Source: Gammaproteobacteria bacterium (GTDB lineage: Bacteria > Pseudomonadota > Gammaproteobacteria > JAJPIJ01). From it: 44,855 bases of DNA. Below the pieces are notes generated by a model that had not been told where the DNA came from, ran no database searches, and saw only the letters and a program-made list of their open reading frames with translations. The DNA lies in the NCBI GenBank assembly GCA_021324815.1, contig JAJPIJ010000015.1, forward strand, positions 1 to 44,855, written 5' to 3'. Positions 15,551 to 20,129 of the stretch are shown piece after piece; within the stretch, counting starts at the first letter, position 1; every line of letters begins with the position of its first letter. The translations under genes and the position numbers were made by a program.

Positions 15551-17431
15551 TCAAGAGGCCGCTGGCGCGGCGCCGTCGCCGTACATGCGTTTCAGTTCCT
15601 CGCCGACGCGCGCGGCACTGGCCGCCTGCCGCGTCAACGGCGGCGAGACCGCCAGTTCCAGCGTACGCGTCAGACCGCGATAGATGCGGAGGAGCGCAGG
15701 ACTCCGCTCGCGGCTGAACAGGGTGCCCCATGCCCCGCGCAGGGTCACGGCGAGGACGGGCCGGCGGCAATTCGACAGCAGGGCGTCGAGCCCCTCCACG
15801 CGCAGGGGCATCCCCCCGTCCGGCGCCGGATCAGGCGTCGCGAACACGCACACGAGATGGCCGGCGCGCAGCAGTCTTTCCACCCCTTTCCGCCAGTGGC
15901 GGCGCTTCGCGATGGCCCCCATCCGCCGCAACAGCAGCCCCGGAAATGGCCCCCGCAGTTCCACTTCGTTGACGACAAAACGAATCGGCCGATGGCTGGC
16001 GGCGGCGATCAACAAGGCGTCGATATGGGTGACGTGGCTGGCGATCAGCAGCGCGCCGCCCGATTCCGGCAGGTGTTCCGTGCCGCGCGTGCGCAGGTGG
16101 TAAAGGCTGTGCACGAGCAGCCAGATGAGAAAACGGACGAAATATTCCGGCACCAGGGTGTAGATGAAAACCGCCACGCCGGCATTCACCAGCGCGGTCG
16201 CGAGCAGCACCTGCGGGATGTCGAGGCCGAGCTTGAAGAGTCCAATGGAAAACGCCGCCGAGCCCACCATGAAAAGGGCGTTCAGGATGTTGTTGGCGGC
16301 AATGACCCGGGAGGTGTGCGTGCGCTCGCTGCGGGTTTGAATCACGGCGTACAGCGGGACGATGTAAAGGCCGCCGAACAGGCCGATGGCGGCGAGATCG
16401 GCGAGCAACCGCGCCGTGCCGGTGCTGCGTAAAAAATCCACCGTCGTCATGGCTTCCCCCAGCGGCGCAAAACCGCGGCAGGCGAGGTGGAAATCCGCGC
16501 CGAACAGGGTGAGACCGATGGAGCCGAACGGCACCAGTCCCATCTCGACCTTGTGCCCGGACAGGCGCTCGCACAGCAGCGAGCCCACGCCCACGCCGAT
16601 GGAAAACACCGTCAACAGCACGACCACGACCGATTCGCCGCCCCGCAGCACGCCCTTGGTGAGATCGGGAAACAGCGACAGGAACACGAGACCGTAGAAC
16701 CAGAACCACGAAATCCCCAGCAGCGACAGGAACACCGTGCGGTTGCCGCGCGCGAAGCGCAGGCTGCGCCAGGTTGCCGTGATCGGATTGAAATTGACGC
16801 GCAGCAGGGGATCGGCCGGCGGCGAGGGCGGCACCCGGCGGGCGGCGGCGTAGCCGCCGGCGGCCACCGCCAGCGTGCCGGCGGCGACCAGCCAGTGGCC
16901 GTGCTGGCGATCGGCGATCAACAGTCCGCCCGCGATCTCGCCCAGCAGAATGGCGACGTTGGTGCCCATCTCGACCAGGCCGTTGCCGCCGACGATCTCC
17001 TCCTCGTTGAGGTGTTGCGGCAGAAAGGAATACTTCACCGGCCCGAACAGCGTCGAGTGCAGCCCCATCAGAAACAGCGCCGTCACCAGCGGCGCGGCGC
17101 TGTGCAGTATGAAGCCCAGCGCGCCCAGGGCCATGATGGAAATTTCGAACAGCTTTATGGCGCGCATCATCCGCGCCTTGTCGAATTTGTCCGCCAGCTG
17201 TCCCGCCACCGCCGAAAACAGAAAGAAGGGCAGGATGAACAGGGCGCCGCAAAAGGCGTTGAAATCCCGCGACTCCATGCCCAGCGGGCGCGTGGTCTGA
17301 TAGGTGAGCATCAGCACCAGCGCGATCTTGAAAAAGTTGTCGTTGAAGGCGCCCAGAAACTGGGTGATGAAAAAAGGCAGGAAACGCCGTTCACGCAGGA
17401 GGACGAACTGGTTGTTGTTTTTGGGCTTCAT
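15551..17431 (-). CDS. MFS lysophospholipid transporter-acyltransferase-like fusion
   Basis: A 626-residue protein. Residues 1-420 are an MFS transporter like LplT, which flips lysophospholipids (FFITQFLGAFNDNFFKIALV is the family start). Residues about 425-626 are a PlsC-like acyltransferase of the Aas type, with the HX4D motif HVTHID, the segment VNEVELRGPFPGLLLRRMGAI, and LAVTLRGAWGTLFSRE. Together the family re-acylates lysophospholipids. The usual FPEGxR motif that binds the glycerol phosphate is not seen; the place reads FATPDPAPDGGMPLR. The adenylating domain of full Aas is also absent. The start MKPKNNNQF is the standard one. The gene is divergent from the next one. Confidence 0.85.
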   Translation of the reverse strand: MKPKNNNQFVLLRERRFLPFFITQFLGAFNDNFFKIALVLMLTYQTTRPLGMESRDFNAFCGALFILPFFLFSAVAGQLADKFDKARMMRAIKLFEISIMALGALGFILHSAAPLVTALFLMGLHSTLFGPVKYSFLPQHLNEEEIVGGNGLVEMGTNVAILLGEIAGGLLIADRQHGHWLVAAGTLAVAAGGYAAARRVPPSPPADPLLRVNFNPITATWRSLRFARGNRTVFLSLLGISWFWFYGLVFLSLFPDLTKGVLRGGESVVVVLLTVFSIGVGVGSLLCERLSGHKVEMGLVPFGSIGLTLFGADFHLACRGFAPLGEAMTTVDFLRSTGTARLLADLAAIGLFGGLYIVPLYAVIQTRSERTHTSRVIAANNILNALFMVGSAAFSIGLFKLGLDIPQVLLATALVNAGVAVFIYTLVPEYFVRFLIWLLVHSLYHLRTRGTEHLPESGGALLIASHVTHIDALLIAAASHRPIRFVVNEVELRGPFPGLLLRRMGAIAKRRHWRKGVERLLRAGHLVCVFATPDPAPDGGMPLRVEGLDALLSNCRRPVLAVTLRGAWGTLFSRERSPALLRIYRGLTRTLELAVSPPLTRQAASAARVGEELKRMYGDGAAPAAS

Positions 17432-17498
17432 TGTTGAGATAAGCTGCTCAGTCCATTCTAATGGCAGCCGGCAGCACACACGAAGGCAATTTAAACCG

Positions 17499-18236
17499 AT
17501 GCCCGCGCTTTTTCGCACCCTGTTCCCCGCCGCCGCCTGCGGCGCGCTGGTGCTGGCGGGGGCCTGGCTGGCGGATCGCCTCATCGGCCTGATCCTGCCG
17601 GGCGACCCCTGCCATGACTTGCTGATGTTCGTGACGGTGGGTTATTTCAGCGTCGTGTTCCTGGCGGCAATGCTCTATCTCGTGGGGCTGACGCTGAGGA
17701 TCACCCGGCCGCACCGGCGGCACCTGTTGCCGCGGCGGACGGCCACCCATGTGCTGGGCTGCGCCGCGTTGGGGTTCTCCGCGCTGACGCCGTTTATTGT
17801 GCTCCACGGTCCGCACAGCGGGGTCGCCTATGGTGAACGCGTGGCGGTGACGGAGGCCCTCGGGCGAACGGTGCTGCTTCAGCAGGCGCTGGCGGCATTT
17901 TGGCGCGCCCATGGCCGCTTCCCCGCCGATGTGCAGGAATTGGCCTGGGTCCCGCCGGATCAATCCACCGCCAGCTCAGTCCGCCGCATAGCGTTTGATG
18001 CGCTGGGCCACATCACCATAGAGTTCGCCAGCCGGCGCTACACGCACCTGGATGGACGGACCTTGGTGCTGCGCCCGCAATGGCAGGCCGGCCAGTGGCT
18101 GTGGAATTGCCAAGGCGGCAATCTCTCCGATGGGCAACGCCCTGTGATATGTCGGCGCCGCGCGGTTTGCCAGGAACTTTATACTGTTTTGAAGGGCGAG
18201 GGTTCGAAACCAACTGGAGAGGGAGAGGAAGAATAG
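17499..18236 (+). CDS. Polytopic membrane protein with pilin-like C-terminal domain
   Basis: A 245-residue protein. Three hydrophobic segments lie at about 8-33, 41-66 and 84-103. The rest (about 113-230) resembles the globular part of type IV pilins. TVLLQQALAAFWRAHGRFPAD resembles the pilin helix end. Later come FDALGHITIEFA, RTLVLRPQWQAGQWLWNCQGG and two more Cys, as in the C-terminal beta-sheet and disulfide loop of PilA. There is no prepilin peptidase site, so it would stay in the membrane rather than join a fibre. The start ATG gives an N-terminal membrane helix; GAAGG lies 12 bases before it, which is long spacing. Its function is unknown; the assignment of the domain is by eye. Confidence 0.65.
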   Translation: MPALFRTLFPAAACGALVLAGAWLADRLIGLILPGDPCHDLLMFVTVGYFSVVFLAAMLYLVGLTLRITRPHRRHLLPRRTATHVLGCAALGFSALTPFIVLHGPHSGVAYGERVAVTEALGRTVLLQQALAAFWRAHGRFPADVQELAWVPPDQSTASSVRRIAFDALGHITIEFASRRYTHLDGRTLVLRPQWQAGQWLWNCQGGNLSDGQRPVICRRRAVCQELYTVLKGEGSKPTGEGEEE

Positions 18237-18398
18237 CAGGCGGGGCGGTCATCCTGGCTGATAAAAACCACAGGAGTGGTTTCATATAACCCCTGCCAGT
18301 TTGAACAGGAGGCTTGAGGCAGAAAATTCAAATCACAAAAGTTTTATAACGTTTTGTTTAAAAAGGGTATTTATTTTATTCAGTTAAAAAGCGTTATG

Positions 18399-18414
18399 TG
18401 GCACGAGTTCTGCT
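18399..18414 (+). promoter_or_regulatory. Sigma-54 promoter upstream of pqqA
   Basis: TGGCACGAGTTCTGCT matches the -24/-12 consensus TGGCACG-N4-TTGCW at all but one base. GG (18400-18401) and GC (18412-18413) are separated by exactly ten bases. Transcription would begin near 18425, about 45 bases before the pqqA start codon. A palindrome CTAGAC-ATG-GTCTAG (18413-18427) covers the -12 to +1 area. Expression would need an enhancer-binding activator. Confidence 0.75.
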
Positions 18415-18468
18415 AGACATGGTCTAGAAGTTTTTTACCACTCATACACAAACGACTTGGAGGTTAAC

Positions 18469-18543
18469 ATGACTTGGGAAACTCCCGCATTCAGCGATGT
18501 ACGTTTCGGCTTTGAAGTCACGATGTACATCAGCAACCGTTAA
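18469..18543 (+). CDS. pqqA: PQQ precursor peptide PqqA (orphan)
   Basis: A 24-residue peptide, MTWETPAFSDVRFGFEVTMY followed by ISNR and TAA. It has the PqqA pattern W-x2-P-x3-D-x-R-x-GFEVTMY-x3-R. Glu16 and Tyr20 are the residues that PqqE cross-links and that become the PQQ skeleton. The start has an ideal ribosome-binding site (TTGGAGG, five bases from the ATG). A sigma-54 promoter lies upstream and a strong terminator 27 bases downstream, so it forms a one-gene transcript. No pqqB, C, D or E is in the window; these must be elsewhere in the genome if the peptide is matured. Short genes of this size are missed by usual gene callers. Identification by sequence is strong; activity is inferred. 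Confidence 0.93.
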   Translation: MTWETPAFSDVRFGFEVTMYISNR

Positions 18544-18569
18544 TTCAAAACGGTTCAAGTAATACGACG

Positions 18570-18599
18570 AAGGGGCCAACCGGCCCCTTTCGTTTTTTT
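18570..18599 (+). terminator. Intrinsic terminator after pqqA
   Basis: Eight-base-pair stem AAGGGGCC/GGCCCCTT (18570-18577/18582-18589) with loop AACC, followed by TCGTTTTTTT. It separates pqqA from the convergent sthA. Confidence 0.92.
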
Positions 18600-18627
18600 A
18601 GGCGGCGTCCTCCAGCCACCCGCCCGG

Positions 18628-20013
18628 TCAGGAGGGGAAGCGGTTGTAGGCGTCCAGCGCGGCGACCTTGTAGGCCTCGGCGAGCGTGGGATAGTTGAAA
18701 ACCGTGTCGACGAAATAATCGAGCGTGCCGCCGAAACTGAGCACCGCCTGGCCAATGTGGATCAGTTCGGTGGCGCCCTCGCCGACGATGTGCACCCCCA
18801 GGAGTTTGCGATCGTCGATGCCAAAGATCAGTTTGAGCAACCCCTCCCGCAGGCCGAGGATCTGACCGCGCGAAGTCTCCCGGAAACGGGCGACGCCGAT
18901 TTCATGGCGGATGGCGGCCTTGACCACCTCTTCCTCGGATTTGCCGATCACGCTCATCTCCGGCACCGAGTAGATGCCGAACGGAAACAGATCGCAGCGG
19001 GCCGAGGTCGGCACGCCGAAGGCATGGCAGGCGGCATGGCGGCCCTGCTCCATGGAGGTGGAGGCGAGGCTGGGAAAGCCGATGACATCGCCGGCCGCGT
19101 AGATGTGCGGCACGCTGGTGCGGTAATGCTCGTCCACCTTGATGCGGCCGCGCTCATCGGGGGTGATGCCGGCGTTTTCTATCTTGAGCTCGTGGGTGAC
19201 GCCTTCGCGCCCGGCGGCGAACAGCGCCATCTCCGCGCGCACCTGTTTCCCGCTGGCCAGATGTAGCCGCACCTGACTGCCGAGGTCCTCTATCGAAACC
19301 ACCTTGTCGCCAAGACGGATGTTGACGTCGCGGTCGCGCAGGTGATGGATGAATTCATCGACAATCTCGCGATCCAGAAACTCCAGCATCTCCCTGCGGC
19401 CGTCGATCAGCGTCACTTCGATGTCGAGCGCGCTGAAGATGGAGGCGTACTCGACGCCGATGACCCCCGCGCCCACGACCACCATGCTGCGCGGCAGGGT
19501 CGTCAGGCGCATGATGTGGTCGCTGTCGAGGATGTTGGTGCCGTTGATGGGCGTGCCGGGCGGGTGCGCCGGCTTGGTGCCGGAGGCGATAAGGATGAAT
19601 TTGCCATGGTAATCCTTGATGCTGCCGTCGGGGTGCTCCACGCGCAGCGTGTGCGGATCGAGGAACTGCGCCGTGCCGACCAGCGAGGTGACGCCATTGC
19701 GGGCGAACTTGTGTTGCAGCACCTCGATCTCATGGCGGATGGTGATGTCCAGGCGCTGCATCAGATCCTCCGCCGTGATGCGCTGCTTGACGCGGTAGCT
19801 GCGGCCGTAAAAGCCGCGCTGCCGCCAGCCGGAGAGATAAAGCACGGCCTCGCGCAGCGTCTTGCTGGGGATGGTGCCCGCGTGCAGGCAGGTGCCGCCG
19901 ATGGCCGTGTGCCTCTCGATCACGGCCACGTTCATGCCGAGCTTGGCCGCCTGGATGGCCGCCCGCTGACCGGCCGGCCCGCTGCCGATGGCGATGTAGT
20001 CGAACTGCTCCAT
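18628..20013 (-). CDS. sthA: Soluble pyridine nucleotide transhydrogenase
   Basis: A 461-residue FAD flavoprotein that transfers hydride between NADPH and NAD+. It has the FAD-binding IGSGPAGQRAAIQAAKLG at the N-terminus, a second dinucleotide fold VVVGAGVIGVEYASIFSAL, and IYAAGDVIGFPSLAS. The redox-active disulfide of dihydrolipoamide dehydrogenase is broken: CLHAGTIPSK has Thr in place of the second Cys, which is typical of SthA. C-terminal dimerisation includes HIVGEGATELIHIGQAVL. The start MEQFDYIAIG has GGGGG four bases upstream. It is divergent from the moxR operon. Confidence 0.92.
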   Translation of the reverse strand: MEQFDYIAIGSGPAGQRAAIQAAKLGMNVAVIERHTAIGGTCLHAGTIPSKTLREAVLYLSGWRQRGFYGRSYRVKQRITAEDLMQRLDITIRHEIEVLQHKFARNGVTSLVGTAQFLDPHTLRVEHPDGSIKDYHGKFILIASGTKPAHPPGTPINGTNILDSDHIMRLTTLPRSMVVVGAGVIGVEYASIFSALDIEVTLIDGRREMLEFLDREIVDEFIHHLRDRDVNIRLGDKVVSIEDLGSQVRLHLASGKQVRAEMALFAAGREGVTHELKIENAGITPDERGRIKVDEHYRTSVPHIYAAGDVIGFPSLASTSMEQGRHAACHAFGVPTSARCDLFPFGIYSVPEMSVIGKSEEEVVKAAIRHEIGVARFRETSRGQILGLREGLLKLIFGIDDRKLLGVHIVGEGATELIHIGQAVLSFGGTLDYFVDTVFNYPTLAEAYKVAALDAYNRFPS

Positions 20014-20129
20014 GCCGCCCCCGTTTATCGTTGTTTTCAGGCAATTTAACAACAACGCCCTCGCGAGTACAGAACCGCTCGGCTATGCTTACAGTCACAT
20101 CATCCATGTCAAAACGCCGGGGAACCTCC

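Follow-up and report, generated by a model that had tools for sequence, protein, structure and literature searches.

Why does a genome hold a gene for the PQQ precursor peptide PqqA apart from the genes of the processing enzymes, and what would switch such a gene on? To our knowledge, the switching of PQQ production is only partly understood, and no general explanation has so far been offered for multiple pqqA copies. The question is raised by a pqqA gene in a stretch of gammaproteobacterial DNA of 44,855 nucleotides, hereafter the window. In the preliminary description, this gene was seen as encoding a 24-residue orphan PqqA, with its own ribosome-binding site, sigma-54 promoter and terminator, between a membrane protein gene and sthA. 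All these elements were recovered, and two predicted enhancer dyads, overlooked in the first reading, can be added to them:

17304..18236, + strand: membrane protein ORF, 5′ neighbour of pqqA, not pqq-related; its true start is probably further in
18255..18270: distal predicted enhancer dyad TGGCTGATAAAAACCA, 16 bp, 144 bp upstream of the -24 element (sequence comparison)
18277..18292: proximal predicted enhancer dyad TGGTTTCATATAACCC, 16 bp, 122 bp upstream of the -24 element (sequence comparison)
18399..18414, + strand: sigma-54 -24/-12 promoter TGGCACGAGTTCTGCT, predicted start ~18425 (consensus fit)
18459..18463, + strand: GGAGG ribosome-binding site (sequence reading)
18469..18543, + strand: pqqA, 24 codons and stop, product MTWETPAFSDVRFGFEVTMYISNR (ORF reading, Pfam)
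18569..18597, + strand: intrinsic terminator, 9-pair stem and T-run, GAAGGGGCCAACCGGCCCCTTT and CGTTTTTTTA
18628..20055, - strand: sthA-like pyridine nucleotide-disulphide oxidoreductase gene, convergent 3′ neighbour

In a profile search, the peptide matches the Pfam PqqA family (PF08042) with 41.5 bits for a cut-off of 21.1, and E16 and Y20 provide the Glu-x3-Tyr cross-link residues that make it a PqqA. The order acyltransferase/MFS gene, membrane protein gene, pqqA and sthA, together with the sigma-54 site, is also found in the other genome of the genus. The C-terminal part of the membrane protein ORF gives a match to the Pilin domain (PF00114).

Sigma-54 promoter and paired dyads upstream of pqqA

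The promoter had been described as near-perfect, and such elements are indeed enriched over chance at pqqA genes. The GC of the -12 element stands at 18412-18413, which places the predicted transcription start near 18425, in agreement with the first reading. An rpoN gene is present in the genome and the TGGCAC-N5-TTGC-type element occurs above chance, as expected of a sigma-54 (RpoN) promoter. The stretch 18200-18700 gave no sigma-70-like site. A palindrome, CTAGACATGGTCTAG, which lies over the predicted start (18413-18427), was set aside as it is absent from the sister species.

In a sample of 369 gammaproteobacterial genomes, pqqA was present in 51. A sense-strand sigma-54 site scoring at least 13 was found within 160 bp for 51 of the 91 pqqA upstream regions of these 51 genomes, and an antisense one for none (0/91). 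At the same threshold, the control rates were 7/607 for regions upstream of other ORFs, 16/3886 for random windows and 17/4550 for dinucleotide shuffles; the score matrix was drawn up by hand to approximate the published consensus, and the threshold was chosen after a first look at the scores. With a threshold of 12, 55 sense sites were counted vs 0 antisense, 10 other-ORF, 28 random and 36 shuffled, so that the contrast is independent of the exact threshold. The sigma-54 sites of pqqA genes are not due to chance. A scan of named genomes gave at least 119 pqqA stretches with such a site, with Thiotrichaceae, Methylohalomonas, Caballeronia, Polaromonas, Hydrogenophaga and Pseudomonas viridiflava among the matches listed.

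When pqqA upstream regions were read side by side, a dyad, TGGTT-N6-AACCA, became apparent at about 100-160 bp upstream of the -24 element. With at most one mismatch, it is found in 43 of 58 sigma-54 pqqA upstream regions, for 0.2 expected in shuffles; dyads with gaps other than 6 occur in only 0-4 of the same 58 regions. As the dyad was first seen in part of this 58-region set and then counted there, the other dyad tests carry more weight. The exact pair (two dyads with 6 bp between them, at most three mismatches) was searched genome-wide in 56 whole genomes including that of the window. In the 2.37 Mb of the latter, it occurs at two places, 18255-18292 in the window and C27:26618-26655, each upstream of a pqqA gene. 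In the 55 other genomes it is almost always at pqqA, the five off-target places all being within long ORFs. The reversed pattern, used as a control, gave no match in the window's genome and three chance matches over the 56 genomes. Spacing between dyads is most often 22 bp, as in the window; a third pqqA copy, on contig C23, is preceded by two dyads with 21-bp spacing. Furthermore, the distances from dyad to -24 element show a phasing of about 11 bp (R 0.62, nominal p 8e-8), matched by 0 of 5000 jittered sets, as expected if an activator must face the polymerase.

Among the matches listed in the named-genome scan, 59 of the 119 sigma-54 pqqA loci carry the dyad, these loci overlapping partly with the genomes in which it was discovered; most of the others encode Burkholderiales-type peptides. 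The Burkholderiales-type genes (L147-L265, e.g. L154, L157, L165) have -24/-12 sites and no TGGTT-N6-AACCA. As far as their upstream regions indicate, they are a second sigma-54 class with another activator.

A candidate kinase-regulator pair

Comparison of the enhancer-binding proteins of four genomes poor in such proteins pointed to an NtrC-family response regulator (C48:24654-26021), whose gene is directly preceded, here as in other genomes, by that of a HAMP histidine kinase (~C48:23181-24638). In a search of 73 genomes, regulator orthologues were found in 31 pqqA genomes at 49-100% identity, all other genomes giving 45% or less, and in 0 of the 22 genomes without pqqA. Of the 31 pqqA genomes with the regulator, 27 have the dyad, vs 0 of the 20 without it (Fisher p 1.4e-10, uncorrected for kinship; the genomes being related, such p-values overstate independence). 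Regulator and dyads are both present in about 13 families. Since, in the sampled genomes, the combination of dyad and sigma-54 control of pqqA is found only with the kinase-regulator pair, this pair is the probable switch, and its regulator is a candidate for the co-varying enhancer-binding protein envisaged in the preliminary description.

In the window's genome, the system adjoins none of the pqqA genes found. In other genomes, the kinase gene and pqqA occur together at 17 loci. At 16 of these the two genes diverge, at a distance of less than about 450 bp, and the intervening DNA contains dyads in 12 of the 16; at the remaining locus, that of genome G134, all genes run in the same direction. 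In G237, about 2 kb separate the regulator orthologue from an orphan pqqA. Where pqqA stands beside the regulator in G031 (L113), G237 (L354) and G122 (L069), dyads are seen but the -12 element is changed (TGAT, TGGA). In three genomes, G011, G124 and G173, the regulator is present and the sigma-54 pqqA genes are devoid of good dyads. In G162, the system is diverged (regulator 56%, kinase about 35% identity) and the pqqA genes have neither dyads nor -24/-12 sites. This genome contains nine pqqA (L058-L062, L033, L083), most of which have a shared palindrome, TCAGGAAAATCCTGA or a sequence close to it, at about 90-110 bp on the upstream side; by the look of these regions, they are under a different regulator.

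The regulator is composed of the Pfam domains Response_reg, Sigma54_activat and HTH_8 (Fis-type), with D51 among the near-invariant columns, as in the NtrC family. However, its GAFTGA loop is replaced by GAFTSA, so that its contact with sigma-54 needs proof. GAFTGA is found in 0 of the 30 orthologues extracted, 27 of which have GAFT[S/N/H/T]A, the other three giving no GAFT-x-A match; the other enhancer-binding proteins of the window's genome have GAFTGA or a motif close to it. Pfam recognises HAMP, HisKA and HATPase domains in the kinase, whose sensor region has no Pfam match and is modelled as an all-helical bundle (pTM 0.43). The fold search was dominated by the kinase core, and no clue to the sensor's ligand came from Pfam, model or fold search. 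Thus, the link to alcohol or nitrogen status suggested earlier receives no direct support, the regulator not being NtrC (a separate NtrC-like protein is also encoded) and the sensor giving no ligand hint.

The orphan gene in a proposed scheme of PQQ supply

It is quite probable that pqqA genes are transcribed from their sigma-54 promoters under activation by this unnamed two-component system, the orphan being one target of a small regulon. This reading draws on features that can be demonstrated in the sequences themselves, namely the dyads, the promoter, their co-occurrence with the regulator, gene adjacency in other genomes and helical phasing. Phosphorylated by the kinase, the regulator would occupy one face of the double helix at the paired dyads, which lie upstream of the promoter at 122-144 bp, and would activate the sigma-54 polymerase at 18399-18414. 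The product would be a short single-gene pqqA mRNA ending near 18597. As the same kind of dyads and promoter precede the pqqA genes of C27 and C23, all precursor genes would rise together with the orphan, and the additional copy would increase the ratio of precursor to enzyme. The peptide would be processed in trans by Pqq enzymes made from elsewhere in the genome, to give PQQ for an XoxF-type methanol dehydrogenase.

The genome is 98% complete. It has three pqqA and three pqqE, so that the window gene is an orphan at its own place and not genome-wide. A complete pqqABCDE operon is found on C27, with PqqB, C and D recognised by ORF reading, homology and NCBIfam, and the two further pqqA copies are at the head of this operon and on C23. 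The latter belongs to a pqqADE mini-cluster without B and C (G000:C23:131600-133200; L014:5613-7200), with its own sigma-54 site and dyads. Its peptide is more divergent, ending GFEVTAYVYVR, and similar clusters occur in G002, G003 and G123; the product of the mini-cluster may be other than PQQ itself. The PQQ methanol/ethanol dehydrogenase family gave one full-length match, encoded on C21 and with a DYD motif; this motif being typical of the lanthanide-type XoxF, we take the enzyme to be of the XoxF type. No dyads were found upstream of xoxF with at most two mismatches. As pqqBCDE is present elsewhere in the genome, the preliminary description is not refuted by a lack of these genes. The proposed tie of pqqA to a sigma-54 activator is supported, with a candidate now named. 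A precursor regulated on its own is not supported, the operon-head gene sharing the same control: all three pqqA copies have dyads and sigma-54 sites, a likeness that went unnoticed in the first reading, so that the orphan is not wired apart from the pathway.

Which enzymes would use the orphan peptide may be asked. A second set, pqqB-pqqC-DE, has no adjacent pqqA (G000:C23:118907-122025; L013:4908-8026), and the orphan might mainly supply it. This is compatible with activation by the two-component system, and it appears somewhat unlikely, as the orphan and operon peptides differ by one residue (K2T) and any PqqD/E set could take either. In this set, PqqD and PqqE domains are joined in one 472-aa ORF, and genes for a GMC-type oxidoreductase and a cytochrome oxidase lie beside it. 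The near identity of the two peptides, along with the frequency of extra pqqA copies, might also suggest a redundant duplicate, brought in together with its promoter and serving no purpose in itself. This is unlikely: in the sister species the orphan is kept at the same place with promoter and dyads intact while its surroundings have diverged, and orphan pqqA genes are concentrated in regulator-bearing genomes (37 of the 39 classifiable ones, seven of them in G162 alone, tandem copies being counted singly).

Another activator was the first suspect. A GlrR-like enhancer-binding protein and a hybrid kinase are encoded about 4 kb upstream of xoxF, the only PQQ alcohol dehydrogenase gene found, and the GlrR-like clade is represented in 16 pqqA genomes vs 0 of the 22 without pqqA; such an activator would tie pqqA to methanol oxidation. 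The candidate was rejected and is now very improbable, since its gene adjoins glmS, the protein is nearest to GlrR, no close relative was found in G014, G166 and G315, all of which have dyads and sigma-54 pqqA, and xoxF lacks an upstream dyad. The glmS, GlrR-like and hybrid histidine kinase genes are in a row (G000:C21:12531-18445; L270). Finally, a role other than in PQQ synthesis is hardly credible given the full conservation of the core and cross-link residues of the peptide. One such role, lanthanide acquisition, has been a matter of speculation for M. extorquens, whose orphan pqqA2/A3 respond to lanthanide supply (PMC11317620).

Activation by the kinase-regulator pair might extend to PQQ import. 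A TonB receptor gene of G134 is preceded by TGGCATAATAGTTGC and by another dyad pair, with 20-bp spacing. The receptor resembles PqqU/YncD (E 9e-109 to PDB 9c4o and 6v81) and scores under the NCBIfam PqqU cut-off. At the named locus L232, a PqqU homologue gene has TGGCACGCTTTCTGCA and one weaker dyad; the neighbouring pqqU homologue of M. lacus has neither dyads nor a sigma-54 site. Activation of pqqU by the same system in G134 is thus suggestive only. Import and synthesis of PQQ have been inferred to be generally under independent regulation (PMC12124388). As to the signal of the kinase, cofactor demand or shortage would be a guess, helped by the dyads and promoter of the G134 pqqU. One may go further and imagine, though we hold it to be doubtful, that the pair is a dedicated PQQ-supply sensor which, via sigma-54, sets pqqA production and, in some species, pqqU import. 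If true, homeostasis of a peptide-derived redox cofactor would be achieved through control of the precursor peptide. Whatever the signal, the cis element and the candidate regulator predict co-switched pqqA genes in about a dozen gammaproteobacterial families, including the cultured methylotroph Methylohalomonas lacus. They offer a testable reason for orphan pqqA genes and a starting point for PQQ over-production, and they may connect PQQ synthesis with import.

Comparison with known systems

Orphan pqqA genes and sigma-54 two-component systems are both already known. In the open-licence PMC literature, no link between sigma-54 and pqqA control was found, nor the combination of an orphan pqqA with a dedicated system. 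Additional pqqA genes are described in Methylorubrum extorquens (pqqA2, pqqA3) and in Methylovorus sp. MP688, which has five; these extra copies are also away from pqqBCDE and responsive to conditions and, unlike the window pqqA, are described with neither sigma-54 promoter nor enhancer in the text consulted (PMC11317620). On a limitation of PQQ supply by the precursor, as proposed in the preliminary description, the same text quotes conflicting views, PqqA being rate-determining in Methylovorus and pqqA dispensable in M. extorquens. Other regulators also act on pqqA or the pqq operon, AmsSR in Acinetobacter baumannii and AgmR in Pseudomonas. AmsS combines a hybrid layout with 14 predicted transmembrane domains, and sigma-54 is unmentioned in the AmsSR paper; AgmR is presented as regulating transcription of the pqq operon, with no description as an enhancer-binding protein (PMC10112286, PMC12997753).

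By its architecture, the present system is closest to the Zra/Ato type (ZraSR, AtoSC, NtrBC), which likewise pairs a kinase with a receiver-AAA+-Fis regulator. The nearest NCBIfam models are AtoC, PEP-CTERM RR and NtrC for the regulator and AtoS and ZraS for the kinase, with scores well under the curated cut-offs (347 vs 714 bits; 133 vs 646); neither protein reaches an equivalog cut-off of AtoSC, ZraSR, NtrBC or GlrKR. The GAFT[S/N/H/T]A loop and the helical sensor further distinguish the system from these relatives. With the known importer PqqU (YncD), the connection would be through regulation, its homologue in G134 sharing dyads and sigma-54 promoter with pqqA.
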